Virus record (IMG/VR): IMGVR_UViG_3300025880_000012
Span: 1 to 64,000 of that record
DNA length: 64,000 bases
Direction: 5' to 3' (one strand)
Source of the DNA: a virus
Shown here piece by piece: positions 2,328 to 20,488 of the stretch (its first letter is position 1; every line of letters starts with the position of its first letter). Below the pieces are notes generated by a model, which saw only the letters and a program-made list of their open reading frames with translations, did no database searches and was not told where the DNA came from. Made by a program: the position numbers and the translations under genes.

Positions 2328-3674
2328 ATGGCAAAAATATTTTTTAACGACAAACAATCAGGAGATAGTCTTACGGCGACCAATGTTAACGACATTAAGG
2401 ACGTAATCAATACAAACGCTGATCAATTAGAGTCGGACATATCTAGCTTACACTTGCAAGATAGTGCAAGCAGTTCATCCACTACAGCAGAATCTATAAG
2501 TAATGGAACTGTTAGTGGTTATTACGACAATAACGATCAATTTAGGTACAATCACCATATCATTCCAGAATCTAATGCTAATTTTGACATTGGTAATGCA
2601 GAATATAAAGTTAGACATTTATTTTTGTCAGATAATTCTTTATGGGTTGGAGATAATAACAAAATTACCATTGGTGCAGATGGAAGTATTAATAATGCAC
2701 GTATAGATAGAAACATAGTACCACCATACATTCAAACACTGCTTGACGACAATGCAGAAGAGATCTATGAATCAATCAAGGCTCCTAACGGCATTCAGGA
2801 ATTCGCACTGGTTTCAGCTATTTCTCCTGAAATGTACTTAAAGTATGCTCAACAATACAATAATGATGTAACTATTGACGACATTTATCCACCAGAAGGA
2901 ACAGCTAATTACGACAAAACTCAATGGAGTGTTAATGCGAGCATGATTCCATTTAAGAAAACAAATGCACTTAAAATCTCAAGTTACACACCATCATCAC
3001 CAGCTAGTAATACTATATATTTCGAATTAGACTTGGATAAAAGCTCTAGTTTTTATCTGGAGTTAAACGACAACACAAAACACCAAATACATTTTAAAAT
3101 TAAGGCATTAAATATAACAGAAAATTATGATTTTAATATTCATTTAAAACCTACAAACAATTTTACCAATTTCACACAAACTCCAACAGTTCGTTTTAGT
3201 TTAGGTGATAGCAGTTCATACAATATAAAACATTATGAGAAATTAACTTCAGATAGTTTAGATGTAAATGGAGATCCAGATTACCTTGCCGCAACAGATT
3301 TAATGATTGATGCAAAAATCTTTTTCGTTTCTACATCAAGCGGAACGATAGTAATGAACGAACCTGAAGTCAGTAATGGATTCACAGATGCATATGACTC
3401 TAATGGAAATAAATATCGAGCTGGAGGAATGGAAAATTATAACTTATGGGGCGCAAACCCACCCACCGCACCAATATACGCATACGATAATAACGGAATA
3501 ATTAGCTTTGTTGATGCAATGACCTTTAGTCCTATCGATTTATCTAATATTACAATTAATAATGTTGACCCTGAAGGTTATGTAACTTCTTTTGATTACT
3601 CAGTGACAGAAAAAAGAGTTAATTCTATACTAAACTTTAATAGTTTTGGTAGCGAAGTTAATAAATATTGGTAG
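2328..3674 (+). CDS. Tail fibre or appendage protein
   Basis: A 448-residue structural protein. The N-terminus MAKIFFNDKQSGDSL resembles the MAKIFSTEK starts of the minus-strand proteins at 37377 and 38418. It also has one copy of their coiled unit (QLESDISSLHLQDSA, about 33-47). Around residues 84-120, NFDIGNAEYKVRHLFLSDNS followed by a glycine-rich strand is the iG-x-x-xYK-F/V-R-x-L-L/Y-L-S-x-x-S pattern seen in many phage fibres. The rest is beta-rich with many Ser, Asn and Thr. It probably belongs to the same adhesion apparatus as the other fibre genes. Receptor and enzymatic activity cannot be read from the sequence. Confidence 0.7.
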   Translation: MAKIFFNDKQSGDSLTATNVNDIKDVINTNADQLESDISSLHLQDSASSSSTTAESISNGTVSGYYDNNDQFRYNHHIIPESNANFDIGNAEYKVRHLFLSDNSLWVGDNNKITIGADGSINNARIDRNIVPPYIQTLLDDNAEEIYESIKAPNGIQEFALVSAISPEMYLKYAQQYNNDVTIDDIYPPEGTANYDKTQWSVNASMIPFKKTNALKISSYTPSSPASNTIYFELDLDKSSSFYLELNDNTKHQIHFKIKALNITENYDFNIHLKPTNNFTNFTQTPTVRFSLGDSSSYNIKHYEKLTSDSLDVNGDPDYLAATDLMIDAKIFFVSTSSGTIVMNEPEVSNGFTDAYDSNGNKYRAGGMENYNLWGANPPTAPIYAYDNNGIISFVDAMTFSPIDLSNITINNVDPEGYVTSFDYSVTEKRVNSILNFNSFGSEVNKYW

Positions 3675-4219
3675 TGGTTTTATCGAAAAAATATAATTTT
3701 TTAATATTAAACCCAGCAAAAACTGCCACAAAGGCCGTATTTACATATTATCAGTCAATTAATCAATCCGAGCAATATAAGCTAGGTTGGCATAGCGATG
3801 TAAATCACACAATACGGCAGTCTCAAAAATACAAGATAAACCTCAAAAACATTAAAAAATATTGTTTCATTAGGGGTCCGATAGATAGAGCAATATCTAT
3901 GTTTCATATGACTTATCAATATTACAGCCTAAGTGACCGAAAAAGTAAATTTAAGAACAGCCTGATGAGCGATAATATGTTGCCAATGGAAAAGTATTAC
4001 AAACACAATAACGAAATTTGGGCTGATGAGATTTTTAAATTCGAAGATCTAAAAAATAGCATAAAATTAATCAATCAAGCTCACAATATAGATTTGCCAG
4101 AATTCCAAGTAAGATCATCAGATTATGATGTGAATTATAAAGAATGGCTGGATGTTGAAACCATAAATTATATATGTGATAGAGAAAAAGAAACTTTCAA
4201 ACTAATCAATTCAATTTAA
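3674..4219 (+). CDS. Sulfotransferase-like protein
   Basis: A protein of about 181 residues. I place the start at the GTG at 3674, which overlaps the preceding TAG by one base; a TTG at 3668 is the alternative. The N-terminal NFLILNPAKTATKAVF fits the 5'-phosphosulfate binding loop of PAPS-dependent sulfotransferases. YCFIRGPIDRAISMFH fits the 3'-phosphate binding motif (R-x-P-x-x-R-x-x-S). A Trp-His pair (WHSD) follows the first motif, as in carbohydrate sulfotransferases. It is shorter than typical family members (about 250-300). Located between a fibre gene and lysis genes, it may sulfate a glycan on the virion or host. That target is inferred. Confidence 0.65.
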   Translation: MVLSKKYNFLILNPAKTATKAVFTYYQSINQSEQYKLGWHSDVNHTIRQSQKYKINLKNIKKYCFIRGPIDRAISMFHMTYQYYSLSDRKSKFKNSLMSDNMLPMEKYYKHNNEIWADEIFKFEDLKNSIKLINQAHNIDLPEFQVRSSDYDVNYKEWLDVETINYICDREKETFKLINSI

Positions 4220-4233: not shown

Positions 4234-4668
4234 ATGTTTGGGAGTATAATGAATACAGTTATTGGCGCGGGTATTAAAGTCGGAGCTAATTTAATTAACT
4301 TTTGGTTAGAGCAAAAAAAACAAGACCAAATGCTACTTGCGGCCCGAGATAATGAAATGTTAAAAGCTCTCATTGAAAACCAAAACAAAAGGGCTGATGA
4401 TCCGTTTGTGAAAGTAACAAGGCGTATATTATTTATGAGCATTACATTTACTATGTGTTTTTTAATGATATATTACGCAATGAATCCACATATTACATAT
4501 GATGTTTTAATGCCAAAAGGTGATAACTCAAAATATGGATTATTTGCTTGGGTATTTGGAGGTGAAAGTTGGACTCAAGTGGAACTTACAGGAGGATTAA
4601 TGTTGGCTTCATTTATGGATTTATGCTTTATGGTTATAGGTTTTTATGCAATTCCATCTAAAAAATGA
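4234..4668 (+). CDS. Holin-like membrane protein
   Basis: A 144-residue protein. It has an amphipathic N-terminal helix (about 1-25), a charged linker (27-60) and two strong hydrophobic segments near 67-86 and 118-139, separated by a polar loop containing GESWTQVELTGG. Size, topology and position directly before a small lipoprotein fit a phage holin or related inner-membrane protein. No endolysin is visible in this window, so a complete lysis cassette is not proven. The next gene overlaps its last four bases (ATGA), indicating translational coupling. It could also be a structural membrane-associated protein, since similar two-segment proteins occur near tail genes. Confidence 0.5.
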   Translation: MFGSIMNTVIGAGIKVGANLINFWLEQKKQDQMLLAARDNEMLKALIENQNKRADDPFVKVTRRILFMSITFTMCFLMIYYAMNPHITYDVLMPKGDNSKYGLFAWVFGGESWTQVELTGGLMLASFMDLCFMVIGFYAIPSKK

Positions 4669-4964
4669 ATAAATTTATAATATATTTATTTTCGTTATTA
4701 TTAACTCTAGGATGTGTTAATAAGTTAAGTGTAAAAAATAAGAACAAACCCGTTTCAACAGAAATTGTATCTTTTGATGTAGTAGATATTGATGAAGATG
4801 GAGCAATTTCAGAAAAAGAATTTAATCGAGCAAAAACAAATAGCTCAATCAATTATAAGGATCCAATGTGGTCAATGTATAGCATCATAGGAATGGTTGG
4901 AGGGTTATTGGTTTTATCGAGCATATTACAATTTAAAAGGAAAAATAAAGATGTCAGAAATTAA
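4665..4964 (+). CDS. EF-hand lipoprotein with C-terminal membrane segment (u-spanin-like)
   Basis: A 99-residue protein. The N-terminus is a lipoprotein signal ending LTLGC (Cys17). Residues 41-52, DIDEDGAISEKE, form a complete canonical EF-hand calcium loop (D-x-D-x-D-G-x-I-S-x-x-E). Residues 71-89 are a hydrophobic segment followed by KRKNK, which would place the C-terminus in the cytoplasm. A lipobox plus C-terminal membrane helix is the layout of unimolecular spanins, which fuse inner and outer membranes at lysis. The periplasmic part here is only about 50 residues, short for that role. It overlaps the holin-like gene by four bases. The calcium site is seen in sequence; the spanin role is inferred. 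Confidence 0.55.
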   Translation: MNKFIIYLFSLLLTLGCVNKLSVKNKNKPVSTEIVSFDVVDIDEDGAISEKEFNRAKTNSSINYKDPMWSMYSIIGMVGGLLVLSSILQFKRKNKDVRN

Positions 4965-6412: not shown

Positions 6413-9400
6413 ATGCCAAATGTAGAAGATAGTGATCAAAGTAAGGAAAATGCATTTTTCTTGGTCAAAGATGTTAGCAAAACACTTATTGGTGGAAAAG
6501 ATGCTGATGGAAATCCTCAAGCTTATTTCGATACATCGGATGTAGGAGTTATACAATCTACAGCCTTATTGCAAAAACTAAATAACTCTGAATTCGTATT
6601 GGGTAGCGAAGGGGAAGTTAATCAAACATGGTTTACATTTTTGCAGCAGGGATCAAAAGTTTACAGTATGGGAGGCAATTCTACCCCAAGTACAGTAACG
6701 ATAACATGGAATAATAGCTCAAACTTAGAATCGGATATTGAAAAATGTAGAGATTTAGAGGTTAATTGGGCCCAATCTGTTTTAGATCAATGGGATACTG
6801 TTGTAACTAGCCCCGGTCCCCCACCATTCTTTAAGCCAATCAATACTAATTTTGGGCAAAAAGTTTTTAATAGTGGGGAGGTGAAAAATGACTTATTATC
6901 AGCTGACCCCTCAATTTCTAGCATAACAAGTAAGGATACTTTGAAATCTTATCTTGAAGATATTATTTCTGGCGCCAACAATCATTCAGTTAAACCAGGC
7001 TCAAGAGGCAGATCCACCATTCCAATTGTTGAGTATTTTAAATTTTACAATTCATCTACTGGCGAAAAATTTGAAAACCCAGGTACTGTTGATGATTTAA
7101 TGACATTAATCAACTCAATTTATGGTAATACAGAATCAGAACAAATTCAAGCCCAAAGAGATAATTTAAGTAATTTTAGTAGTCTTGGAGAAGCTGTTTT
7201 AGCATTTCAGAATTCGACTGAATATTCAGTTGGGCCGTTTGTTCAGGGTGAAGAAAGAATTACTGGGTACCAAAATATTAACACAGAGGAAGCTGTCTCT
7301 GAGATACCAGAAGGTGAAGATATAGCTAATTTTACACCATTAACAGAGATTATTTCAATACTTGACAACTTTAAAAAACAATTTAGTAAATATACTGATT
7401 TAGGAGCTCCAGAACATTTGTTCTCTGGGGTAATGATTAATAATTATTTAATTGAAAACCAAACAATATCCGGTTTAGCTGATACCCCTTCAGGCAATAT
7501 CAGTGGCATGTTATTGGTGAGTGATGGTAGTGGTTTCGATTATGTTAGTCATACATTAACCGGCTTAAGCGATACTCCTACTGGGTATTTGTCAGGCTAT
7601 TATTTGCGTTCTCATGCTAGTGGGTTTGAATATATATCACCAGAAGATTTTGGTGAAAGTATTGACTACTTTACTGGATTAAGTGACACACCGAGCGGGT
7701 ATGTTAGTCATTCTGGTCATTATCTGATAGTAAATGACGGTGAAAGTGGTATACATTTTACAGGTATTGAAAAAATCGCACAAGATTTAACGAATCATGG
7801 TTTTGTTGGGGGCGAAGGGTCAAATCACTTTACAGGACTACAAGATACACCTAGCGATTATAATAGCGGTCACTATTTGCGATCCACTGACAATGGTATA
7901 GAGTATGCTGAACCATCTGAACTGGGGCAAGATATACTCACTAATACTACTGGGTTGGCTAGTGGATATTTACGTATTGATGATGACGGCACAGGTATCG
8001 TTATTGTTGACCGTGAAACTTTTAAAGACGAAATTGATCTACAAGCCGACTTTACAGGACTACAAGATACACCTAGCGATTATAGCGAAGGAGACTACCT
8101 TCGTTCAACCTCAAACGGACTAGAGTACGTTACTACTAGTGGTTTAGCTCAAGATATTGGTGATGAAATCGTTAACAATATAGTGACTGGAGATTTATTG
8201 GGATTCACGGGTCTAAATGATACACCTACAGGTTACGAAACAGGTAAATTTGTACGAGTAAATTCCGCTGGAGATGCGGTAGAGTATTCAGACATTTCGT
8301 TTTTAAACGATGTTATTGATGCACCCGAAAGTCAATTAGTTAGCGGATTTCTGCAGCTCGATAAAGACGGAAAATTAGTTTGGTCTCCAGCAACTACTGA
8401 TGGAGATGTTAGTTTTACCATTACTGGGGCGACACATTTTACTGGCCTACTGGATACACCAAATGCTTATGATAACGGTAAGTTTTTAGCATTTGATGCA
8501 TTTAAAAATCAAATCACAGGCGTGGAGTTAAAACTAGCATCAAGTTTTTACGGGCCTGCAGATGTGATTAACGACCCTAATGATTTAGCTAAGGTAGGAG
8601 ATAAAAAAATATTAGAATACCATAAAACTCAAGAACATGGGTATGAAATCAAATGGGTTGATCAAATTACTGAAATTACAACCTTTACTGGCCTTAACGA
8701 TACTCCAACAAATTACCAAGAAGGTAAATACTTACGTTCTACCGCAGACGGTTTAGAGTATGTTGATATCACAGGTTTAGCTGAAGAAGTATCCGCAGAG
8801 ATCGATTTTCCTGAAGGAGCGACTGGATTCACTGGGTTACATGATACACCAGCAGATTACCAAGAAGGTAAATACTTACGTTCTACCGCAGACGGTTTAG
8901 AGTATGTTGATATCACAGGTTTAGCTGAAGAAGTATCCGCAGAGATCGATTTTCCTGAAGGAGCGACTGGATTTACTGGGTTACATGATACACCAGCAGA
9001 TTACCAAGAAGGTAAATACTTACGTTCTACCGCAGACGGTTTAGAGTATGTTGATATTACAGGTTTAGCTGAAGAAGTATCCTCAGAGATCGATTTTCCT
9101 GAAGGAGCGACTGCATTCACTGGGTTACATGATACACCAGCAGATTACAAAAACTACGAAGATAGATATTTTGTCGTTTCTAGCGGTGATTCCTTAAGCT
9201 ATGAACAAGTTAAATTTTTAGAAAATGTTAAAGATGCTCCAAATGTCAATAACGTTCCTAGTGATGGTACAGGATACTTGCAATTAGTTCAAGAATCAAA
9301 CGAGTGGATTTTAAAATGGGCTCCAGGAACTATCGAGGGTGATATCACTCAAAACTTTCAGGGCACAGAATATTTTACAGGTTTAGAAGATACTCCAACA

Positions 9401-11302
9401 GATTATCAGGAGGGTAAATATTTACGTTCTACCGCAAACGGTTTAGAGTACATTGATATCACAGGTTTAGCTGAAGAGGTATCCTCAGAGATCGATTTTC
9501 CTGAAGGAGTAACTAGATTTACTGGGTTACATGATACACCCATCAACTATAATAATGGTGCTTATTTAAGGTCGACAACTAATGGTTTAGAGTATGCTGG
9601 AATTGAGCCCACTAAATATAACTCAATTAATGATTTGCCAGCTCAAGCCGCAAATCATGACGGAGAAGTGGTTAGAGTAGGTTGTGATTTATATTTATCT
9701 TGCGATGGTGTTTGGAAAAAGTTCAAACAAGAAACGAGTGAAGTTATTGACGACCCTAATGATATCTTTCCTGAATGTGTAGAAACGACAGCAGAAGCTT
9801 TACAGTATCAGCAATATTTTGATGAAGTTATGGCTGCAGGAAATAGTTCTAGTTTTATAGATGGTTTAAACGGAACTTCTGAAAATAGCGATTTAAAATC
9901 TGTTTGCTTATTTAAAAAAGATCTTTATAACTCTGTATCCTGGGGTCAGTCATCCTGGCAAACTAGAGGTTTCTCTAGTATGGGTAACTTTGGAATAGGA
10001 AAAGAGCACGATAGTAATTGTAGTCCTAAATTTAAAAAAGGTAGCGATCAATTGTTTTTTATAATTGATACTCGCATCAGCAGCAGCACTGTAGATACAA
10101 TGGATTTAATTGTGGGAAAAATTAATGATTCATTTCAATACGAGAAAGTGTGGAGTAAAAGAGTAAATAATGAGGGATATAATGGAGTTGCAGATATTAC
10201 TGATGATTTTAAGCATATTGTATATTCCCAAAATAGAGTCAGTTCAACTACTGTATACGATATACATGTATTGGATAACAACGAAACTACTGGCGGTTAC
10301 GAACAAAATAGACCGCCAATCACAATAGAGCTAGCTCAGTCTTTATACAATATAACCCCTTTAAATTCTAATTCAAATTTAGGTATCCTACCATTCAGAA
10401 TATCACAAGATGGAAAAAGAGTATTTGTTATGTTAGGTCATGGAACTGCTACCAACACTAGTTTAAGGTTATTTATTTTTGAATGGAATGGTACAGATTG
10501 GGTTTTGCCTTATGTAATGGATATGCCTACACCCAAAGATGGAGCTGTAACAATGATAACATCATGGATACACTCATTTCTTTTGAATGAAGATGAAAGT
10601 GTAATTTACTTAATTGGAGGCAGGATACAGACAAGTTCAAAATCTGGAGGAGTATTTAGAATAAATTATGAAAATGTATCTATCGGTCCACAAATAGGTC
10701 AAAACTTCTGGAACCATTCATCTAATGGCGTTATGTCAATGAATAATTTAGGTAATATTATTACATCTAGAGACGAGAATAGTTCAGATCCCAACTATAT
10801 ATGGAAGTATAATGAAAATTCTGGAATTTGGGATAGAATTGCAAGCATTAAATCGACATACCTAAGTATGTCTAGGAACGGAAAATTTTTCTTCGATAAA
10901 ACTGGTTTTACTGGAAAAGTTTATTACTATAATGAAAGCACAAACTCATTGATTCAAATAGCTCAAAATTTATCGACAAGTAATACTGGAAACAATGCTG
11001 CAATTTCTGATTCTGGGCAATCAATTGCTTATCCCAATAACACTGCAACTATTGCATTATCTCAAATTCCAGAAGTAGAAGGAGATATTTACAATAATTC
11101 TGTCGTTATTGAAGAGTCTAACTATAAGTGGGGACTTTTTGAAGGGAATACCAATATTAACCTTAGTGGCTCAATAGATACAAATTGTACATTTACTGAA
11201 TGGCAAACCTCTGACGTTAATCTAACTGACTCAAGTAACATTAATACCACCGCAAACATTAATAAAAGTGCATCCATTACAGGTGTATTTAATTGTGGAT
11301 AA
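6413..11302 (+). CDS. Giant repeat-containing tail fibre protein
   Basis: A 1629-residue fibre. Residues 1-350 are a unique N-terminal part. Residues about 350-1070 contain over ten copies of an FTGL-x-DTP-x-x-Y strand unit, including three nearly identical 48-residue copies encoded at 8684-9115. Near 1095-1110, GCDLYLSCDGVWKKF is the Cys module shared with the five following genes. Residues about 1180-1560 are beta-propeller-like, with recurring S-x-DG/NG strands such as ISQDGKRVFVML. The last 70 residues, ending SITGVFNCG, resemble the divergent InlB B-repeat domain. It is the longest member of the fibre family and probably the ancestral or main receptor-binding fibre. Confidence 0.75.
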   Translation: MPNVEDSDQSKENAFFLVKDVSKTLIGGKDADGNPQAYFDTSDVGVIQSTALLQKLNNSEFVLGSEGEVNQTWFTFLQQGSKVYSMGGNSTPSTVTITWNNSSNLESDIEKCRDLEVNWAQSVLDQWDTVVTSPGPPPFFKPINTNFGQKVFNSGEVKNDLLSADPSISSITSKDTLKSYLEDIISGANNHSVKPGSRGRSTIPIVEYFKFYNSSTGEKFENPGTVDDLMTLINSIYGNTESEQIQAQRDNLSNFSSLGEAVLAFQNSTEYSVGPFVQGEERITGYQNINTEEAVSEIPEGEDIANFTPLTEIISILDNFKKQFSKYTDLGAPEHLFSGVMINNYLIENQTISGLADTPSGNISGMLLVSDGSGFDYVSHTLTGLSDTPTGYLSGYYLRSHASGFEYISPEDFGESIDYFTGLSDTPSGYVSHSGHYLIVNDGESGIHFTGIEKIAQDLTNHGFVGGEGSNHFTGLQDTPSDYNSGHYLRSTDNGIEYAEPSELGQDILTNTTGLASGYLRIDDDGTGIVIVDRETFKDEIDLQADFTGLQDTPSDYSEGDYLRSTSNGLEYVTTSGLAQDIGDEIVNNIVTGDLLGFTGLNDTPTGYETGKFVRVNSAGDAVEYSDISFLNDVIDAPESQLVSGFLQLDKDGKLVWSPATTDGDVSFTITGATHFTGLLDTPNAYDNGKFLAFDAFKNQITGVELKLASSFYGPADVINDPNDLAKVGDKKILEYHKTQEHGYEIKWVDQITEITTFTGLNDTPTNYQEGKYLRSTADGLEYVDITGLAEEVSAEIDFPEGATGFTGLHDTPADYQEGKYLRSTADGLEYVDITGLAEEVSAEIDFPEGATGFTGLHDTPADYQEGKYLRSTADGLEYVDITGLAEEVSSEIDFPEGATAFTGLHDTPADYKNYEDRYFVVSSGDSLSYEQVKFLENVKDAPNVNNVPSDGTGYLQLVQESNEWILKWAPGTIEGDITQNFQGTEYFTGLEDTPTDYQEGKYLRSTANGLEYIDITGLAEEVSSEIDFPEGVTRFTGLHDTPINYNNGAYLRSTTNGLEYAGIEPTKYNSINDLPAQAANHDGEVVRVGCDLYLSCDGVWKKFKQETSEVIDDPNDIFPECVETTAEALQYQQYFDEVMAAGNSSSFIDGLNGTSENSDLKSVCLFKKDLYNSVSWGQSSWQTRGFSSMGNFGIGKEHDSNCSPKFKKGSDQLFFIIDTRISSSTVDTMDLIVGKINDSFQYEKVWSKRVNNEGYNGVADITDDFKHIVYSQNRVSSTTVYDIHVLDNNETTGGYEQNRPPITIELAQSLYNITPLNSNSNLGILPFRISQDGKRVFVMLGHGTATNTSLRLFIFEWNGTDWVLPYVMDMPTPKDGAVTMITSWIHSFLLNEDESVIYLIGGRIQTSSKSGGVFRINYENVSIGPQIGQNFWNHSSNGVMSMNNLGNIITSRDENSSDPNYIWKYNENSGIWDRIASIKSTYLSMSRNGKFFFDKTGFTGKVYYYNESTNSLIQIAQNLSTSNTGNNAAISDSGQSIAYPNNTATIALSQIPEVEGDIYNNSVVIEESNYKWGLFEGNTNINLSGSIDTNCTFTEWQTSDVNLTDSSNINTTANINKSASITGVFNCG
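8684..9115 (+). repeat. 144-bp tandem repeat, three near-identical copies
   Basis: Three consecutive units start at 8684, 8828 and 8972. Each encodes 48 residues beginning FTGL-x-DTP and ending FPEGAT. They are almost identical at DNA level, so recent expansion or ongoing copy-number change is likely. A fourth unit at 9116 matches only at its start, and a further related unit begins near 9373. Confidence 0.9.
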
Positions 11303-11304
11303 TT

Positions 11305-13437
11305 ATGAGTAATAACTTACAGCATGTATTGAATCAAGCTTTCTCTGGAATGGGAGATGCTGTTAGAGCAAAACTATATATAACAGGTTTAAATGACACC
11401 CCAACAGGCTACCTTGGACACAGTGGCGATTACCTTGTAGTCAATGACGGTGAAACTGGCATACATTTCACAGGCATAGAAAAAATCGCGGCTGACCTTA
11501 CAGATTATGGATTTATAGGCGGAGATGGAATTACTGGATTTACTGGACTAAAAGATACTCCTACAGGTTACCAAGACCATAGTGGTGATTATCTTGTAGT
11601 AAACGACAACGAAAGCGGCATACATTTCACAGGTATCGAAAAGATCGCGGCTGATTTAGTAGATTATGGATTTGCTGGAGGTGGGGGGTCGACTAATTTT
11701 ACTGGGCTTCAAGACACTCCGAACAATTATAGTGATGGTAGTTATTTAAAATCCACAGCTAACGGTCTAGAGTATGCTGGAATTGTTCCCACTTCTTACT
11801 CAGATGTTTTGAGTTTGCCCAGCAATCCCAATCAGCACGAAGGAGAAGTTGTAAAAGTTGGGTGCGATATTTATCTATCCTGCAACGGAGAATGGCAAAA
11901 GTTAGATACATCAAGCCAAGACGACGTTCCATCATCTTATCCAGCCTGTGTTACCACGACTGAAGAAATGGTAGAGTATGATAAGTATGAGCAAGAAGTT
12001 TCAGATGAATTATCAGAACAAGAATTAATAAATAGCATTAATGGAATCGAAGCGAATACGGACATTAATAATGTTTGTTTATTCACAAAAGATATTTATG
12101 ACGATATTATTCTAGATGAAAATGCAACCTGGCAAAATAGGGGTGATATTGGCAATATTATTGAGCGGCGGTATTCATGGACTAGAGTAAGTGAGGATGG
12201 AACTAAATTTGCTCATGATAGCTCTATAGTTATTGGATCATCCTCATCGAAAAGAAAAACTTATCTATATTTCACCGTGTCAACCTTAAATAAACAAACT
12301 CAAACAATCACCAATAGTCAAACATTTAAAAATGCGAATAGCTTCATTTATATTACTCACAATTTTCAGTGGATTGTCGCAGTAAATTACATTAATGGTG
12401 AAGGAACAGCTTACGATGATACTGGAGGCTTAGACCCACATAGAATTGAAATTCATAAACTAAATACTGCATCCAATATTTATGAATTGCATGAAATTTT
12501 TGATACACCCGAATCACTAAATATAGATTGGATCGGAAGTGACGAGGCCATAATTTCAGAAGACGGTAATCAACTCTTAATTGCTTCGACCGCTTTAGGT
12601 TTAAACAAATTGTACAACTTCGTAAGAAATGGAAATTCATGGGAGCATCTCAATACATTTAGTATACCCGCTATCCCTTCGATAAGACAAATCAATAAAG
12701 ATTTAACTAAAATAGCTATTTATTCGAACAACACAAAGTTATTTGGATTATATAATATTAATTATGAAACTAGTGTTTTAGAAAATATTATAAGTTTGAC
12801 CACTCCTACTGACGGGAGAAAAGACTTAGTTAATGAAAATTTCGACACAGTTCTTCAAACCAAGCACCACGCCGGAAGTGTTTATTGGTATTCTGTATAT
12901 AAATATGATGAAACAAGTAATAGTTTTAAGATAACTAACACTGGAAACCCAAGCGTAGTAGATAAAGACGGGATTAATGCTATTCATCCTACTTATCTTG
13001 ACCTAAATCAAAATAGTATGTCTGAAGATGGAAACATAATAACTCTACCTGGAGTAGGTGTTTACTATTATAATAGCTCAAACGATACTTGGAATTTAAT
13101 GGGGAATAATATTAATACCAATATAAATTTAATGAGCTCAGATGGATCAATTATAGGAACCGAGGATGGTATTGTTAGAGAGATTTACTTTACTCAAGTT
13201 CCTCGCACAAACACTAGCCTTTATAACAATTCAGTACACATTGAAGAATCAACGTACAAGTGGGGGATTTTTAATGGTGACCAGTCGATTAATATCACAG
13301 CATCAGAAAGTGCTGGTTGCACGTTCAGCGAGTGGACAACTGCTGATATTTCTATACTTGGAAACATTAACAGCAATCAAACAACGGCATTAATAAGTCA
13401 AGATACATCAATAACAGGTGTATTTAACTGCGGATAA
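11305..13437 (+). CDS. Receptor-binding fibre paralogue 1 (beta-propeller type)
   Basis: A 710-residue protein. The ATG at 11305 lies two bases after the preceding stop; the in-frame TTG four codons upstream lies inside that stop region and is not favoured. A 30-residue helical N-terminus is followed by two copies of the shared cassette (DTPTGY, SGDYLVVNDGE, GIHFTGIEKIAADL). Next come one FTGL-x-DTP unit, the Cys module GCDIYLSCNGEWQKL, a helical VCLF segment, a beta-propeller-like region (about 290-640) with strands such as ISEDGNQLLIA, and an InlB-repeat-like C-terminus ending SITGVFNCG. It is likely one arm of a multi-fibre adhesion complex. Confidence 0.7.
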   Translation: MSNNLQHVLNQAFSGMGDAVRAKLYITGLNDTPTGYLGHSGDYLVVNDGETGIHFTGIEKIAADLTDYGFIGGDGITGFTGLKDTPTGYQDHSGDYLVVNDNESGIHFTGIEKIAADLVDYGFAGGGGSTNFTGLQDTPNNYSDGSYLKSTANGLEYAGIVPTSYSDVLSLPSNPNQHEGEVVKVGCDIYLSCNGEWQKLDTSSQDDVPSSYPACVTTTEEMVEYDKYEQEVSDELSEQELINSINGIEANTDINNVCLFTKDIYDDIILDENATWQNRGDIGNIIERRYSWTRVSEDGTKFAHDSSIVIGSSSSKRKTYLYFTVSTLNKQTQTITNSQTFKNANSFIYITHNFQWIVAVNYINGEGTAYDDTGGLDPHRIEIHKLNTASNIYELHEIFDTPESLNIDWIGSDEAIISEDGNQLLIASTALGLNKLYNFVRNGNSWEHLNTFSIPAIPSIRQINKDLTKIAIYSNNTKLFGLYNINYETSVLENIISLTTPTDGRKDLVNENFDTVLQTKHHAGSVYWYSVYKYDETSNSFKITNTGNPSVVDKDGINAIHPTYLDLNQNSMSEDGNIITLPGVGVYYYNSSNDTWNLMGNNINTNINLMSSDGSIIGTEDGIVREIYFTQVPRTNTSLYNNSVHIEESTYKWGIFNGDQSINITASESAGCTFSEWTTADISILGNINSNQTTALISQDTSITGVFNCG
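11395..11514 (+). repeat. Shared fibre cassette, copy in paralogue 1
   Basis: A 120-bp segment from GACACCCCAACAGG to GATTATGGATTT, nearly identical in six consecutive fibre genes. It encodes the N-terminal module shared by all of them. A second, more diverged copy follows within this gene at about 11557-11673. Confidence 0.85.
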
Positions 13438-13439
13438 TT

Positions 13440-15584
13440 ATGAGTATACAAGATAGGTTAAACTCAGCTAAGTTGATTGGGCAAACAATTGACCAAAGAT
13501 TATATATTACTGGCTTACACGACACCCCAACAGGCTATCTCGGCCACAGCGGAGATTATCTCGTAGTAAACGATGGTGAAAGCGGCGTACATTTCACAGG
13601 TATCGAAAAGATCGCGGCTGATTTAGTAGATTATGGATTTACTGGAGAAAGCTCAACGATACCGAGTTACACAGATCTTCCAGATGTCACAGAAAACGAT
13701 GGTAAAATAGTAGCCTCTGGATGCGATCTTTATCATTCATGCAATGGAACATGGAATAAAATCGGTGGTGAATCGATACCTCCACCAGCCGAAGCTCCAG
13801 GATGTGTAACGAATCTCGAAGAATATAACCAATACCAAGAGTACAAAGATGATTTTTTAGCGGATAATCTAGGTAACACATTTGATCAAATGTTAAACTC
13901 GAATAATGATATTAGCAATCTAATCTTTGATGTCTGTTTGTTTCCTGAATCAAACCTAGAGAACGAAAGAAATACGGTAGTTATTGATGAAACTACTTAC
14001 AAGTGGGGAATGTTTGCGGGCCCGCAAACAATAAACCTTTCTGCAGAGGGATATTCTGACGGTCAAGGAAACGATTGTGTATTTAGCGAGTGGACGAGTA
14101 GCAATGCAAATTTTGGAGATTCTAGTAGTGCGAATACTACTGTTTTTGTGGATACTGATTTGTCGATCACTGGAAGTTTTGAGTGTTTGATTGCTCCTAG
14201 TCAACCAAGTTGTGATCGAGTAGTTTTACACCTTCAACCAACTGCTGGAGAAACTATCACCGACAAGAGTAGCGACGAACATGCGATCACTGTGGTTGGC
14301 GATACAACAGTAGACAACACCAAAACATTGTTTGGTGAAGACACAATGCATTTTGATGGTAATGGAGATGGAGTGAGTGTTGGTGACACAAGCACATTCA
14401 AATTTTTACATGACGCTAGCACCGATTACACAGTTGAGTGTTGGGTAAATTTCTCAACACTCTCAGCCCTGGTTAATCCAATAATCGGAACTGCAGGGAA
14501 TAGCCATACAACTGGATTTAGCATTTATTATGCTGGTAGCAACAACGACAACAATGAATGGAGAGCGTTAATATGGAGAGGAAGTCAAGATGTACCAGTT
14601 GCTCGTGTAGATATTTCGGATGTACCAGAAACAAACAGATGGTATCATGTGGCTGCAGTACACACGAACAACACATTGTATTTTTATATTGATGGTGTTT
14701 TGGGTGGCTCAAGTTCTGGAGTAAATTATTCTAGCAACGATTGTTGGAGAGAATTGAGGGTGGGTAGCGCTGAAGCTGAAGCAGGTGATAATCGATATTC
14801 AGACTGCCAAATCCAAGACGTGCGCATCAGCAAAAAAGCAGTTTACACTGGCAACTTCACCCCGCCAACAAATTTGCTCGCTAACCTTTGCCCCGAACAA
14901 CCAAGTTGTGAAGATGTAGCTTTACATCTTCAACCTGACACAGGAGAAACTATCACTGATAAGAGTGGTAACGAGCATGTGATCACAACTGTTGGTGATA
15001 CAGTTGTAGACGACACTACCACACTATTTGGTGGCGACACAATCAATTTTGATGGTAACGGAGATTATTTGACGGTCAATCAAACCAGCACATTGAACCT
15101 GGGTGGTAATTTCACCATGGAAGGTTGGTTTTATATAAAAGATCAATGGGGTGTAAACGGTGTGAATTGCTTGGTATCACAATGGACTGACAATAGTGAA
15201 TGCGGTACAAATTGGTCATTAAATATCAGGCAGTCCACAAAGAACTTGGAGTTTGCTAGAAAAACAACTAGTTGTACATCAGGTGTAGTGTTGACCGGTG
15301 GATTTGAATACAACACGTGGACTCATGTGGCTGTGGTTGGCGAAACAACCGAGAACACCATCAAGATGTATGTGAACGGCGGGCAAGCACAACAGTCAAT
15401 AACAGACAAAGACACCCGGAGCGAAAATTTAACATATCCAATATACATAGGAACCAGAAAATTTGCGAACAATGGTGACCCAATGGACTTCGCTGGCCAT
15501 ATTCAAGACTTTCGTATCAGCAAACATGTGGTATACACAAGCAACTTCACCCCGCCAACAAATTTGTTAAACAACCCCTGTTAA
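13440..15584 (+). CDS. Receptor-binding fibre paralogue 2 (two LamG-like domains)
   Basis: A 714-residue protein whose ATG lies two bases after the previous stop, in the same TAATTATGAGT context as paralogue 1. The order is a short helical N-terminus, the shared cassette (about 28-67), the Cys module GCDLYHSCNGTWNKI (about 93-107), a VCLF segment, an InlB-repeat-like domain (about 180-250), and two LamG/concanavalin-like jellyroll domains (about 258-480 and 485-714). Each LamG domain has an FDGNGD strand, an E-x-W-V/F strand, a W-x-HVA-x-V strand and a closing VYT-x-NFTPPTNLL. LamG folds bind carbohydrates, so glycan recognition is likely. Confidence 0.78.
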   Translation: MSIQDRLNSAKLIGQTIDQRLYITGLHDTPTGYLGHSGDYLVVNDGESGVHFTGIEKIAADLVDYGFTGESSTIPSYTDLPDVTENDGKIVASGCDLYHSCNGTWNKIGGESIPPPAEAPGCVTNLEEYNQYQEYKDDFLADNLGNTFDQMLNSNNDISNLIFDVCLFPESNLENERNTVVIDETTYKWGMFAGPQTINLSAEGYSDGQGNDCVFSEWTSSNANFGDSSSANTTVFVDTDLSITGSFECLIAPSQPSCDRVVLHLQPTAGETITDKSSDEHAITVVGDTTVDNTKTLFGEDTMHFDGNGDGVSVGDTSTFKFLHDASTDYTVECWVNFSTLSALVNPIIGTAGNSHTTGFSIYYAGSNNDNNEWRALIWRGSQDVPVARVDISDVPETNRWYHVAAVHTNNTLYFYIDGVLGGSSSGVNYSSNDCWRELRVGSAEAEAGDNRYSDCQIQDVRISKKAVYTGNFTPPTNLLANLCPEQPSCEDVALHLQPDTGETITDKSGNEHVITTVGDTVVDDTTTLFGGDTINFDGNGDYLTVNQTSTLNLGGNFTMEGWFYIKDQWGVNGVNCLVSQWTDNSECGTNWSLNIRQSTKNLEFARKTTSCTSGVVLTGGFEYNTWTHVAVVGETTENTIKMYVNGGQAQQSITDKDTRSENLTYPIYIGTRKFANNGDPMDFAGHIQDFRISKHVVYTSNFTPPTNLLNNPC
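13521..13640 (+). repeat. Shared fibre cassette, copy in paralogue 2
   Basis: Second gene copy of the 120-bp cassette, with a few synonymous changes and GGCGTACAT in place of GGCATACAT. Confidence 0.85.
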
Positions 15585-15599
15585 AGTGTAATAAATATC
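15585..15599 (+). promoter_or_regulatory. GTGTA start-proximal motif
   Basis: AGTGTAATAAATATC directly before the ATG at 15600, overlapping the end of the preceding stop. The first 14 bases match the site before 19031, suggesting the two genes were duplicated together with their control site. Confidence 0.6.
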
Positions 15600-17582
15600 A
15601 TGTCAGAATCAACACAAAAAATGCTATCAGGAATAGCTGAGATGGCTAGATCGATACAAACTTATGTACCAACAGGGCTTTTTCAATTAAAAGACACCCC
15701 AACAGGCTACCAAGGACACAGTGGCGATTACCTTGTAGTCAATGACGGTGAAACTGGCATACATTTCACAGGTATCGAAAAGATAGCGGCTGACCTTACA
15801 GATTATGGATTTGGTGGTACCACTTTAAATATACCAAAATATACCACCTTGCCAGACCCAATAACTAACGATGGTAAAATTGTAGCTAGTAGTTGTGATT
15901 TATATTATTCTTGTGATGGTGAGTGGGAAAAAATAATTCAGTTTAGTGAAGATGTCATACCAGAAACATATCCAGTGTGCGTAAAAACACAATTAGAAAT
16001 GATAGAGTACGATGCCTACAAGGACGAAATAGCAAACCAGCAAATGGAGTCGGCATTTGTCGACTCTCTTAATGGAGAAAGTAACAGTTTGGAGGTAAGA
16101 AATGTATGTTTACTCAAAAAAGAACCCACTAGCTCTATAAGTATCAACCCAGACGAAGCTTGGAATGAGATTGCGTCATTTGAGATATCGAGGGCTCCAG
16201 TTGTGATGAATTATCAAAAAAATACATATATAATAAATGATGCTAAAGATAAATTCTTAATTCCATGGCTAAGAGTTCCAACTACTGATCAATATTCTGT
16301 AAGAATTGTCAATGAACAGGGAGAAACACTTTTTAATTTTTCTGGCTTTGGGCGTTATACTTTTGTTTCTATAACTTCTGACTTTAAATATATAGCTCAT
16401 ATGACAGAGATATCTAGCCAGAATAACGACAAAGAAATTAATTTATATAAATTCAATGAATCAAATAATTCATATGAATCCTATGGAAAAATAGAGCACA
16501 GTGTATTTACTGGCAATAGAGATGGATTTAGAATTAGTGAAAATGGTCAAAAAATAGCTTGCAGTGGATCCGGAAAAATTGGAATTTTTGAGGAAAATGG
16601 TGGTAACTGGGAACTTGTAAATGAAATGACATTTTCCCCCCATCTTCGTACAACTTCAAACATACCTCATATTTCATATAGTCCAGATTTAAGTAAATTT
16701 GTAATCGAAGCAAATATATTAGATACAGGTTCTGAGTATATGGAATTTGGGGGACTTAAATTCTATGAGATTGACTATGTTAATAATATAGTTAGTAAAT
16801 ATATGCAGATAGAATGGGATTCTAATGATTCAGTTACATCTTGGGTACTTAATGATAATTTCGACACTTTAGTTGTTATGAGAACTATTCCAGGCCAAGG
16901 GTCAACTCATCAGTTGGCGGACTATATATCTGTATACAAATATATTCAATCATCTAATTCTTGGGTGATAACCAATCAATCAAACTCTAACAGTTTATTT
17001 CAAGGTGTAGCAGGCAAACATACGATAAATTCTGAACCCCTTGCAATTACTGAGTATGCTTTATCCCCTAATGGAGATTTTATTGTTTTAAGTCTTGGAG
17101 AGTATGAAGACACTAGCTCGAGCTATAATGTACCTCAGGACGGCGAAACTATAACTTATTACTACGATAAAGATATTGACCAATGGATACAGTATGGTAT
17201 TGATCCAATTATTGGGTCTGCATCTCCATTAGCTATATCTAATGATGGATCTACCATAGTTAGTTCAAATCAAAAATATAATATCTCGAAGCAAGCACTA
17301 TATAGGTATTTTTTTATTAATAAAATGTTTTTTGATGAAAGCTCTTTGACATCGTTTAGTAGTAAGAGTTATAATAATAGTATTTTCATTGAAGAATCTA
17401 CATACAAATGGGGAATTTTTCTACCTGAAACGACAATTAATTTAAATGGCTCCATTGACCCAGATTGCTCATTTATTCAATGGCAATCTAGTGATGCTGT
17501 AATTAATCAACCCAATACGTTTAACACATCAGTTATTATCAATAACGATTCCTCAATTACAGGTGTATTTAATTGTACATAA
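15600..17582 (+). CDS. Receptor-binding fibre paralogue 3 (beta-propeller type)
   Basis: A 660-residue protein. It has an N-terminal helix and a YVPTGLFQLKDTPTGY lead shared almost exactly with the gene at 19031. The shared cassette, a SYSTTLPDP-type linker and the Cys module SCDLYYSCDGEWEKI follow. After a VCLL segment it has a long beta-propeller-like region (about 190-590; strands such as ISENGQKIACSG, LSPNGDFIVLS, ISNDGSTIVSS). It ends in an InlB-repeat-like domain closing SITGVFNCT. The propeller has the same architecture as in the genes at 6413 and 11305 but has diverged strongly, while the cassette has not, as expected for swapped or fast-evolving binding parts. Confidence 0.72.
   Translation: MSESTQKMLSGIAEMARSIQTYVPTGLFQLKDTPTGYQGHSGDYLVVNDGETGIHFTGIEKIAADLTDYGFGGTTLNIPKYTTLPDPITNDGKIVASSCDLYYSCDGEWEKIIQFSEDVIPETYPVCVKTQLEMIEYDAYKDEIANQQMESAFVDSLNGESNSLEVRNVCLLKKEPTSSISINPDEAWNEIASFEISRAPVVMNYQKNTYIINDAKDKFLIPWLRVPTTDQYSVRIVNEQGETLFNFSGFGRYTFVSITSDFKYIAHMTEISSQNNDKEINLYKFNESNNSYESYGKIEHSVFTGNRDGFRISENGQKIACSGSGKIGIFEENGGNWELVNEMTFSPHLRTTSNIPHISYSPDLSKFVIEANILDTGSEYMEFGGLKFYEIDYVNNIVSKYMQIEWDSNDSVTSWVLNDNFDTLVVMRTIPGQGSTHQLADYISVYKYIQSSNSWVITNQSNSNSLFQGVAGKHTINSEPLAITEYALSPNGDFIVLSLGEYEDTSSSYNVPQDGETITYYYDKDIDQWIQYGIDPIIGSASPLAISNDGSTIVSSNQKYNISKQALYRYFFINKMFFDESSLTSFSSKSYNNSIFIEESTYKWGIFLPETTINLNGSIDPDCSFIQWQSSDAVINQPNTFNTSVIINNDSSITGVFNCT
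15693..15812 (+). repeat. Shared fibre cassette, copy in paralogue 3
   Basis: Third gene copy of the 120-bp cassette, nearly identical to the copy at 11395 apart from CAAGG in place of CTTGG. Confidence 0.85.
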
Positions 17583-17584
17583 TA

Positions 17585-19015
17585 ATGAGTTACGACAAAG
17601 TTCAATTTATCTATAATGCATTCCAAAAAATGGGTGCAGCCATATCGACAAAACTTAACATAACTGGTTTAAACGATACCCCAACAGGCTACCAAGGACA
17701 CAGTGGAGATTACCTCATAGTTAACGATAACGAAAGCGGCATACATTTCACAGGTATCGAAAAAATCGCGGCTGATCTAACAGATTATGGATTTGGTGGA
17801 GGAAGTTCAACCATACCGAGTTACACAGATCTTCCAGATGTCACAGAAAACGATGGTAAAATTGTAGCTAGGGGTTGTGATTTATATTATAGTTGCGATG
17901 GCGAATGGAAAAAGATTGGTGCAGATTCTATACCTCCCCCAGAAGACGTACCAGGTTGCATAAGTAACCTTGAAGAATACAATGAATATCAAGAATATAA
18001 AGAGCGATTTTTGGCAGATAATATGGGGAGTGCTGCGGAATCTATTTTAAACAATGGAACAAAACTTTCTGATCTAGTCTTAGATGTATGCTTATTCCCA
18101 GAATCAAACCTAGAAAATGAAAAAAACACCGTAGTCATTGATGAAACCGAATACAAGTGGGGAATATTTGAGAGTCCGCAAACGATAAACCTTTCTGCAG
18201 TAGGATATTCTGATCAAATAGTTAGTTGTGTATTTAGAGAGTGGACGAGTAGCAATGTTACTTTTGAAGATTCTACCAGCGCAAATACTTCTGTTTTTGT
18301 GGATACAGATTCGTCAATCACTGGAAGTTTTGACTGTTTCTTTCCTCCTGGTCAACCGAGTTGTTCTGAAATTTTATTTCACCTTCAATCAAACAACGAT
18401 CAACCAATAGATAAATCAACACATCAAAGACCTATAGAAAATGCAAATAATGTCGTGTCATCTAACGATCAACAATTATTCGGAGGGTCAACTTTTGATT
18501 TTACTTCAGCGCAAGGAGCAATCGTAACTGAATTAGTTGACATATCATCTCCTGAAATAAATGGGTTTGAAGCTATAACCACTGAGGTTTGGATAAACTT
18601 AAATGATTTAGGTTTAAATCAGGGCTCGAGTCAAACCGTTTTTGAATTTGCTGGAATAGATCGATTAAGAATAAATGGCTCCACAAACAATCCGCGTCCG
18701 ATAGGGTCTTTATTTTGGGAAAGAGGAAACAAATCTCATTTCTTTCCTGCCGATATTTCACCTTTAAATATCAACCAATGGTATCATATTGCGGTTGTAT
18801 ATACTAAAAGCAATCAAACCCTTAAAGTCTATTTAGATGGAATACAAATTGCACTAATTGAACCTATAAGCTTTTTACTTCTTGATGGACATTGGAGAGT
18901 TGGTGGGCCTAGTGGATTCATAAAAGGATACTTGCAAGATTTTAGAGTTTCAAAGAAAGAAGTCTATACAAGCAACTTTACCCCACCAAATAGTTTATTA
19001 AGTAACCCCTGTTAA
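17585..19015 (+). CDS. Receptor-binding fibre paralogue 4 (LamG type)
   Basis: A 476-residue protein starting at the ATG at 17585, two bases after the previous stop; the in-frame TTG at 17573 is rejected. It has a short helix, the shared cassette, a STIPSYTDLPDVTENDGK linker identical in parts to paralogues 2 and 5, and the Cys module GCDLYYSCDGEWKKI. A VCLF segment, an InlB-repeat-like domain and a single LamG-like jellyroll (about 255-476) ending VYTSNFTPPNSLLSNPC follow. Compared with paralogue 2 it lacks one LamG domain. Carbohydrate binding is likely for the LamG part. Confidence 0.75.
   Translation: MSYDKVQFIYNAFQKMGAAISTKLNITGLNDTPTGYQGHSGDYLIVNDNESGIHFTGIEKIAADLTDYGFGGGSSTIPSYTDLPDVTENDGKIVARGCDLYYSCDGEWKKIGADSIPPPEDVPGCISNLEEYNEYQEYKERFLADNMGSAAESILNNGTKLSDLVLDVCLFPESNLENEKNTVVIDETEYKWGIFESPQTINLSAVGYSDQIVSCVFREWTSSNVTFEDSTSANTSVFVDTDSSITGSFDCFFPPGQPSCSEILFHLQSNNDQPIDKSTHQRPIENANNVVSSNDQQLFGGSTFDFTSAQGAIVTELVDISSPEINGFEAITTEVWINLNDLGLNQGSSQTVFEFAGIDRLRINGSTNNPRPIGSLFWERGNKSHFFPADISPLNINQWYHIAVVYTKSNQTLKVYLDGIQIALIEPISFLLLDGHWRVGGPSGFIKGYLQDFRVSKKEVYTSNFTPPNSLLSNPC
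17675..17794 (+). repeat. Shared fibre cassette, copy in paralogue 4
   Basis: Fourth gene copy of the 120-bp cassette; somewhat more diverged (GATACC start, AACGAAAGC inside). Confidence 0.85.
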
Positions 19016-19030
19016 AGTGTAATAAATATT
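19016..19030 (+). promoter_or_regulatory. GTGTA start-proximal motif
   Basis: AGTGTAATAAATATT directly before the ATG at 19031; differs from the site before 15600 only in the last base. Confidence 0.6.
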
Positions 19031-20488
19031 ATGTCATCAGCCAAACAAAGCTTATCAGGAATCGAAGATCTACTTTTCGCAGTAAAAGATTATGTGCCAA
19101 CAGGACTTTTTGAATTAAAAGATACCCCAACAGGCTACCTTGGACACAGTGGCGATTACCTTGTAGTCAATGACGGTGAAACTGGCATACATTTTACGGG
19201 TGTCGCAAAAATTGCTCAAGATCTTACAGATTATGGATTTGGTGGAGATGGAGGAAGTTCAACCATACCAAGCTACACAGACCTTCCAGATGTCACGGAA
19301 AACGATGGTAAAATAGTAGCATCTGGTTGTAATTTATATTATGCTTGCGAAGGAGAATGGAAGAAGGTGGGTGCAGATACTACAGCCCCTCCAGAGAACA
19401 TTGAAATACCTGATTGCATTTCAAATTTAGAAGAGTATAATCAATATCAAGATTATGTAGATAATGTAATAAATAGTAATATTGATATAGCTTTTGATAT
19501 TGGGTTTAGGAATTTAACTGTAGATAATTTTTTTAATAATGTTTGTCTTTTTGGAAACAATTTAAATGTGCCTGAAAATTTAAATTTAATTACTCAAGCA
19601 CCAAGCAGTACTCAAGCACCAAGCAGTACTCAAGCACCAAGCAGTACTCAAGCACCAAGCAGTAATGCTAACCACATAAATAATAAATACCCAGAAGCTG
19701 GTTCTTACGATGTTCTTTGGACAGGTGGAAGCATTAACAATAGTGCCGCTATATCTTATAACAGTTCATTGCCAACTATTACACATGGCACAGATAATCA
19801 AGGTAACAGCAACAATACGGTTGTTTTTTGGCAAAAAGCTGGGGGGCATATGGGGTGGGTTTTACCTGAACAATATACTTATGTAAAGACTGGGCAAAAG
19901 TTTCAAATATCAATGTGGGGCGGTGCAGATCGTGCAAGTGGCTCAAGGTGGTCAAAAGTTGGTCACTCATCGCATCCTTCATCATGGACAACTGATTACA
20001 TTTCAAGTGTGTCTTCCAATCAATCGGGGGAAATCACCATTGAGTATTCTTTTAATAAACTTGTAAATAGTTCAGCTCCGACATGGCATTACAATAATCT
20101 ATTGCTAGTAGCTGTATTTAATTATGGAACCGAGTACGCTTCGTGGTATAAACTAAGTTTTGGTACGTACCTTAATCAAAACCTATTGATTAACATGAGC
20201 GAGACAGCAGTTTTAGATCAACCTGTTTTTAATTCGCCTGCGAACACCCCAATACTCGCACCCGGCGAAACTTTGGGGTCAGTGCGAGTAACTGAATCAA
20301 ATTACAAGTGGGCATTAGTACCAAAAGATAACCCTACAGTAAACATACAGGCGGATCCAGGTAGGTGTCAGTTTGTTGGTTGGCAGACAAGCGATAATTC
20401 TATACTAGGTAATCCAAATGATGCATCCACAACCGCTTTAATTAACCAAGACACATCAATAACGGGTGTGTTTGATTGTACACCATAA
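19031..20488 (+). CDS. Receptor-binding fibre paralogue 5 (STQAPS-repeat type)
   Basis: A 485-residue protein with the YVPTGLFELKDTPTGY lead of paralogue 3, the shared cassette and the Cys module GCNLYYACEGEWKKV. A variable helical VCLF segment comes next. A Ser/Thr/Gln/Ala/Pro stretch made of four copies of TQAPSS (about 188-212) then acts as a flexible linker. It is followed by a beta-rich domain of about 170 residues unlike those of the neighbouring paralogues, with many Trp, Ser and Asn residues, and an InlB-repeat-like C-terminus. The central domain is not recognised and probably carries the binding specificity. Its stop overlaps the next ATG by one base. Confidence 0.72.
   Translation: MSSAKQSLSGIEDLLFAVKDYVPTGLFELKDTPTGYLGHSGDYLVVNDGETGIHFTGVAKIAQDLTDYGFGGDGGSSTIPSYTDLPDVTENDGKIVASGCNLYYACEGEWKKVGADTTAPPENIEIPDCISNLEEYNQYQDYVDNVINSNIDIAFDIGFRNLTVDNFFNNVCLFGNNLNVPENLNLITQAPSSTQAPSSTQAPSSTQAPSSNANHINNKYPEAGSYDVLWTGGSINNSAAISYNSSLPTITHGTDNQGNSNNTVVFWQKAGGHMGWVLPEQYTYVKTGQKFQISMWGGADRASGSRWSKVGHSSHPSSWTTDYISSVSSNQSGEITIEYSFNKLVNSSAPTWHYNNLLLVAVFNYGTEYASWYKLSFGTYLNQNLLINMSETAVLDQPVFNSPANTPILAPGETLGSVRVTESNYKWALVPKDNPTVNIQADPGRCQFVGWQTSDNSILGNPNDASTTALINQDTSITGVFDCTP
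19121..19240 (+). repeat. Shared fibre cassette, copy in paralogue 5
   Basis: Fifth gene copy of the 120-bp cassette; the 3' quarter has diverged (GTCGCAAAAATTGCTCAAG). Confidence 0.85.
19592..19663 (+). repeat. 18-bp tandem repeat, four perfect copies
   Basis: ACTCAAGCACCAAGCAGT repeated at 19592, 19610, 19628 and 19646. The copies are identical, so length variation by slippage is likely. It encodes the TQAPSS linker of paralogue 5. Confidence 0.95.

Follow-up and report, generated by a model that had tools for sequence, protein, structure and literature searches.

A candidate unimolecular-spanin-like lipoprotein family of uncultured tailed phages with an EF-hand in about half of its members

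The 64,000-nucleotide stretch of virus DNA analysed here (the window; part of the 76,927-base IMG/VR record IMGVR_UViG_3300025880_000012) encodes a 99-residue protein (P0001; 4665-4964, plus strand, ATG start) that, judged by its sequence, is a member of a widespread, fast-changing lipoprotein family in uncultured tailed phages. The protein carries an EF-hand loop that, on the residue pattern kept by its relatives, very likely binds calcium. There is about an even chance that it is a unimolecular-spanin-like (u-spanin-like) protein, in which the lipid anchor is joined by a second, C-terminal membrane anchor. Within u-spanin-like proteins an EF-hand-bearing variant would be new, albeit unproven; a literature search, mostly at title and abstract level, found no account of an EF-hand spanin or of a phage-encoded EF-hand lipoprotein. 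Of the steps of phage lysis, the one that spanins carry out is the least understood, and relatives with and without one calcium-binding element offer a ready natural comparison for studying such a tether, in a large phage group without a recognised endolysin or other spanin in the records searched here.

An earlier, sequence-only reading had described the ORF as combining a lipobox, a complete EF-hand loop and a C-terminal membrane helix, and re-reading of the sequence bore out this architecture. A signal peptide comprises residues 1-16 (4665-4712, plus strand, as are all features of the gene), with a hydropathy peak at residues 4-5 and a model helix at residues 2-15, and is followed by the lipid-attachment Cys17 (4713-4715), which is invariant across 41 aligned members and is the sole invariant column of that alignment (A1). 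Cys17 is preceded by a hydrophobic stretch. The last four lipobox letters, TLGC, depart at -3 and -2 from the consensus ([LVI][ASTVI][GAS]...) given in a section of PMC6139136. The relatives have lipobox ends such as LFGC, IVGC, LSSC and FSGC, and thus support for the lipobox comes from the family more than from the window copy. The EF-hand loop DIDEDGAISEKE (residues 41-52, 4785-4820) is flanked by model helices at residues 37-40 and 50-59. A hydropathy peak marks the C-terminal transmembrane (TM) helix at approximately residues 70-90 (4872-4934), within a predicted helix spanning residues 65-98, and the basic C-terminal tail (4935-4961), predicted to be cytosolic, has a net charge of +4 with the tail boundary set by script.

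The window protein alone as a query retrieved no relative from 50,697 phage records (the one match, of 31 residues at E 5, was judged spurious), and exact peptide seeds derived from it found no relative in IMG/VR. The 144-residue protein encoded directly upstream, used as bait, recovered 133 related stretches in IMG/VR. In the best 80 of these 133, on which the family counts of the first scan rest, a small ORF containing a lipid-attachment Cys and a second, C-terminal hydrophobic segment started at the end of the bait gene at 63 loci, 27 with an EF loop and 36 without, and 17 loci had no adjacent ORF of this kind. One EF-hand lipoprotein with a second Cys in its sequence (L049) was assigned by hand. 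The filters demanded a TM segment, so that its presence in every family row, including the 63 of these best 80 loci that passed, is a selection effect. The upstream and lipoprotein genes overlap by 4 nucleotides in 62 of 64 adjacent pairs, the window included. Whole-record profile searches located a non-adjacent relative of like anatomy in 11 of the 17 other records (again within the best 80 of 133 loci), three with an EF loop (L106, L107, L108) and the others without (L109-L112, L114, L121, L122 and one in L133). Six of these 11 copies lie between the gene for a 105-residue protein and a gene taken as nrdB, and four others directly follow the gene for a large membrane protein. The same search yielded no convincing relative in the remaining six records (L008, L009, L048, L064, L065 and L067), which may be fragments.

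With L101, distantly related to the upstream protein, as bait, a second scan turned up 80 loci. New lipoproteins with an EF loop were found at 17 of them and without at 3; a further 42 held a lipoprotein already known and 18 had no adjacent one, some of these loci being contigs already in the set. A scan seeded by the close relatives of the window returned five loci, namely the contigs of L002, L003, L004 and L076 and a new fragment, L140. Mean column identity is 28% for the lipoprotein (A1, 41 members) versus 83% for the upstream protein (43 members). Purifying selection on the lipoprotein is indicated by dN/dS values of 0.08-0.41 in 21 of 22 pairs, one pair being saturated; the values for the window gene are 0.24 against L002 and 0.41 against L003.

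The topology of 64 distinct members was read from sequence patterns and hydropathy. None has Asp at +2 after the lipid Cys, the residue of a retention rule that was established for E. coli and need not apply to the host. The net charge of the C-terminal tail is positive in 56 members, zero in 7 and negative in 1, and 63 of the 64 lack a periplasmic Cys, the exception being L108, which has an ambiguous lipobox. With the lipid Cys and the C-terminal TM helix kept throughout, the spanin-like topology and the positive cytosolic end that had been proposed hold as anatomy. The main objection raised at the time, the short periplasmic segment, also holds, since this part measures 50 residues in the window protein compared with 84 in T1 gp11 (AY216660, same script). 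It weighs more heavily on the half of the family without an EF-hand, in which the periplasmic part ranges from 32 to 42 residues (median 38), as against 43-59 (median 51) in EF members (64 distinct proteins in all). A stretched chain extends by about 0.35 nm per residue. At this value, the stretched periplasmic part of the family would reach approximately 11-21 nm, and less with the EF-hand folded: 50 residues correspond to about 17 nm, 38 residues to about 13 nm, and 50 residues that include a folded EF-hand to about 12 nm. The similar reach of the EF and EF-less forms fits an EF-hand acting as an added folded module and not as a switch.

An EF loop is present in 42 of 80 distinct lipoproteins (30 by the strict pattern) and absent from 38; these counts, and the parsimony described below, leave out rows scored as 'none' that duplicate contigs already present. 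The search pattern specified positions 1, 3, 5, 8 and 12, with D allowed at 12, and in all 42 loops these positions are occupied by D, N/D, D/N/S/T, I/V/L and E, respectively. Position 9, which lies outside the pattern, has an oxygen-bearing side chain (S, D, T, E or N) in 42 of 42, and a Phe four residues before the loop (-4), likewise outside the pattern, is found in 41. The residue following the loop (+13) is hydrophobic (Y, F, V, I, L or A) in 38 and position 6 is Gly in 31; positions 2, 4, 7, 10 and 11 are variable. Glu at loop position 12 favours Ca2+ over Mg2+. The same 12-residue loop, with Phe at -4, Ile/Val at 8, Glu at 12 and a hydrophobic residue at +13, is found in calmodulin, sarcoplasmic calcium-binding protein and dockerins, from which the family differs in that its EF-hand is single where theirs are paired, and in that a phage protein of about 100 residues with two membrane anchors carries it.

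It is very improbable that the loop represents a chance acidic match without calcium binding. Such a coincidence would accord with the score of the Pfam EF-hand family PF13202 on the window protein (E 2.7e-4, 20.7 bits), which falls under the curated cut-off of 25.9 bits, with the single EF-hand per chain, and with the lack of a loop in about half of the family. Against it, 42 distinct sequences retain the ligand positions together with position 9, Glu12 and, in 41, Phe(-4), amid positions that vary, and the controls rarely match. In 200,000 shuffles of the mature window protein the strict loop arose in 0.03% and the loose pattern in 1.5%; shuffling predicts 0.25 loops in the first 64 distinct members, where 29 were observed; and 1243 other ORFs at the family loci contained 0 strict and 28 loose loops. 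The claim of a complete EF-hand loop was borne out. The A1 profile gave 104 matches in the PDB at E up to 1 (best E 1.8e-4), and 58 of the best 60 of these 104 bear names that we take to denote EF-hand proteins, the others being 9hmf and 6fcg. The AlphaFold2 model computed from the 41-row alignment (pLDDT 78.1, pTM 0.43) has the short helix, the loop and the second helix followed by the long helix, that is, a helix-loop-helix and then the TM segment. A Foldseek search with this model produced no significant match; its PDB output was limited to three rows, dockerin and calmodulin complexes with E ~9. With one loop per chain, EF-hand pairing within the chain was not found, and a pair would take two chains.

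The further proposal that the protein senses calcium and so controls membrane fusion is not supported, given the 38 members without an EF-hand and a site that would always be filled at millimolar calcium. Missing from about half of the family, the EF-hand is not essential to the function of the family, and as related phages manage without it, it would tune that function and not make it. Should the periplasm track a calcium-rich medium, the site would stay occupied throughout, and a sensor role is then unlikely. It is more likely that the EF-hand is loaded constitutively and has a structural or dimerising role. EF and EF-less members group by state on the tree built from the upstream protein, with 8 and 5 changes versus shuffled means of 23.0 and 25.5, and the well-supported branches force at least four and two changes of EF state. 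The clade of the window on this tree has seven members, all EF. Parsimony on the first tree favours an EF root when L101 is the outgroup (7 versus 9 steps) and gives a tie at the midpoint root; on a larger, poorly resolved tree EF is favoured by 10 versus 12 and 10 versus 11 steps. These results lean towards EF as the older state, with the qualification that the tree is that of the neighbour, to which the lipoprotein gene is not linked in every case.

The upstream gene (4234-4668, plus strand) encodes a 144-residue protein with two predicted TM helices, corresponding to two hydrophobic segments in the hydropathy profile, and a long N-terminal helix; its AlphaFold2 model is poor (mean pLDDT 61.6). 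The sequence-only reading had placed the lipoprotein gene directly after a holin-like gene. The adjacency was confirmed, the two genes sharing a 4-nt ATGA overlap, and the holin identity was not: there was no meaningful Pfam match and, with E values of up to 1 admitted, none to a Pfam holin family, and the best PHROG matches were to unnamed families, with the 'holin' family phrog_3427 matched by 3 of 43 members at a best E of 0.063. Against the phage collection the protein gave three matches, all of them weak. A possible distant relative in MW202524 (28% identity, E 0.7) is annotated as a hypothetical protein, and the gene downstream of it encodes a membrane protein without lipoprotein anatomy. 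In view of the weak PHROG matches, the lack of a Pfam holin match and the uninformative MW202524 relative, the upstream protein may be termed holin-like in the loosest sense only. Directly before it lies a weakly sulfotransferase-like ORF (window 3668-4219; PF03567, E 9.9e-4, below cut-off), and several genes similar to this ORF occur at the loci of relatives. In L108 (L132:1336-1893), an EF-hand relative with the loop DLNQDGMLDTRE lies on the strand opposite to that of the holin-like gene, about 0.8 kb away and pointing at that gene; its charged C-terminal tail is unusually long.

Sections of Kongari et al. 2018 (PMC6139136) define u-spanins by a lipobox and a C-terminal TM segment, list 58 of them, none with a periplasmic Cys, and report almost no mechanistic data for the class; the shortest combined length given there for a two-component spanin is 62 residues, against 50 for the periplasmic part of the window protein. 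An ISME J 2025 survey (PMC12596118), parts of which report 261,425 spanins in IMG/VR and the use of only u-spanins by the Bacteroidetes phages in its set, contains neither 'calcium' nor 'EF-hand' in its main text. Like T1 gp11, the prototype u-spanin, the family has an N-terminal lipobox (LSGC in T1 gp11), a C-terminal TM helix, a basic cytosolic tail and no periplasmic Cys. It differs in the EF-hand of half its members, in the shorter periplasmic part (32-59 versus 84 residues) and in a helical/EF-hand make-up in place of a β-rich one; the two lack sequence similarity, and BLASTP gave no match to T1 gp11. This anatomy, the synteny with its 4-nt overlap, the lack of Asp at +2 and the purifying selection all argue for a u-spanin-like identity. 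In the 76,927-base record, moreover, no lipobox ORF other than that of the window protein has a strong second hydrophobic segment. The short periplasmic part, the lack of a detected endolysin, the weak holin identity of the neighbour and the lack of a sequence match to known spanins argue against a u-spanin-like identity. So do the further small lipobox ORFs in one record (G006) and the position of the lipoprotein gene between nrd genes, away from the membrane gene, in some viruses; in contrast to known u-spanins, no holin-endolysin cassette was recognisable around the family gene. Two PHROG 'Rz-like spanin' families were considered as candidate matches and rejected: phrog_8971 matched weakly (E 0.032, residues 2-41 of the window protein), and phrog_812, matched by 6 of 41 members at a best E of 5.8e-4, was dropped as it also matched in 10 of 14 control genomes.

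The anatomy may also be accommodated within a single membrane. In an inner-membrane hairpin, the lipid and the TM helix would both reside in the inner membrane and the protein would time or restrain the overlapping upstream protein in an antiholin-like manner. The translational overlap in 62 of 64 pairs fits such a partnership, a short periplasmic segment suffices for a one-membrane loop, and the +2 sorting rule of E. coli may fail in the host. We consider this arrangement rather unlikely, as the lipoprotein is retained in the 11 records in which the genes are apart, the 83% versus 28% column identities are unlike those of a tight pair, and the holin identity of the upstream protein rests on weak matches. 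The phage lipoproteins Cor and Llp, which have superinfection-exclusion or receptor-masking roles, provide a precedent for an unlikely alternative function, the exclusion of a second phage. The rapid divergence of the family fits an arms race, and 2 of 41 members hit the 'Cor superinfection exclusion protein' family phrog_1119 (best E 0.023). This hit is weak, however, the dN/dS values lie well under 1, and the known superinfection-exclusion lipoproteins have, to our knowledge, no C-terminal TM anchor.

The protein may alternatively form the outer-membrane half of a two-component spanin, the inner half being encoded by an opposite-strand ORF about 2 kb upstream. ORFs of this i-spanin-like form contain 60-114 residues, with an N-terminal TM segment and a short coiled coil (e.g. 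L073:4930-5142, minus strand). They are present in 38 of 81 loci and, among loci with at least 5 kb of upstream sequence, in 33 of the 45 scored with an adjacent lipoprotein compared with 0 of the 17 scored without one. This alternative is nevertheless decidedly improbable, because the family retains its own TM helix, the coiled-coil ORF was not found in the record of the window by tblastn, and where present it sits on the opposite strand as part of another group of genes.

For a u-spanin-like protein, the lipid end would be placed in the outer membrane, with the TM end remaining in the inner one, so that one chain would tether both. Once the cell wall is cut, the tethers may draw the two membranes towards each other and contribute to the failure of the outer one. 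The protein would thus link the inner and outer membranes as Rz/Rz1 do, although with one chain in place of two and with neither a coiled coil nor a disulfide-forming Cys. The EF-hand would bind Ca2+ and fold upon arrival in the periplasm, serving as an assembly or shape device rather than as a sensor. Lone EF-hands usually pair, and those of two lipoprotein chains may therefore dimerise, clasping the chains much as an intermolecular disulfide does in two-component spanins. We offer only tentatively the more specific proposal of a Ca2+-clasped u-spanin, in which EF-hand pairing dimerises the tethers, sets their length and replaces the disulfide, and in which lineages have repeatedly dropped the clasp. 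If it is true, Ca2+-dependent EF-hand pairing stands in for the disulfide of two-component spanins. Spanins are described in part of PMC6139136 as needed for lysis where millimolar divalent cations stabilise the outer membrane, a need that would suit a sea-water setting if these phages live there.

The window phage encodes a large terminase subunit (phrog_2), minor tail proteins (phrog_18 and phrog_30) and a PhoH-like protein, and the contigs of its relatives extend up to 200 kb. No endolysin was detected in 17 virus records (77-200 kb, 16 of them above 95 kb) with PF08291, PF01510, PF00959, PF01464 and PF01551; a search with PF05838 was set aside because its control was silent. The lysis enzyme of this phage group thus seems to be unrecognised by five Pfam families in these 17 records, and candidate lysis proteins close to the lipoprotein gene gave no informative family match. 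Two matches were obtained in GTDB, in a Halobacteriovorax MAG and a Flavobacteriaceae MAG. The former, L101 (PBIO01000004.1, 71,679 bases), is of the same size as the IMG/VR virus 2788500220_000008 and encodes a 100% identical upstream protein; it is probably a phage contig inside a bacterial bin, and given this match the Halobacteriovorax label is no proof of host. Record G010, from a relative of the phage (L090:13926-15215 and L090:15634-17868), encodes DUF1501 (E 2e-109) and PSCyt2/PSD1 proteins, an unusual phage cargo. Such proteins are typical of Planctomycetes/Verrucomicrobia and offer a host clue. Elsewhere in the window, seven consecutive large ORFs (6413-24144; 480-1629 residues) contain FTGLxDTPxxY repeats and are probably tail-fibre-like. 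The ORF at 969-1511 has a partial DnaJ-like match (PF00226, E 9.6e-5, below cut-off), and similar ORFs in the relatives carry a THPDK motif.
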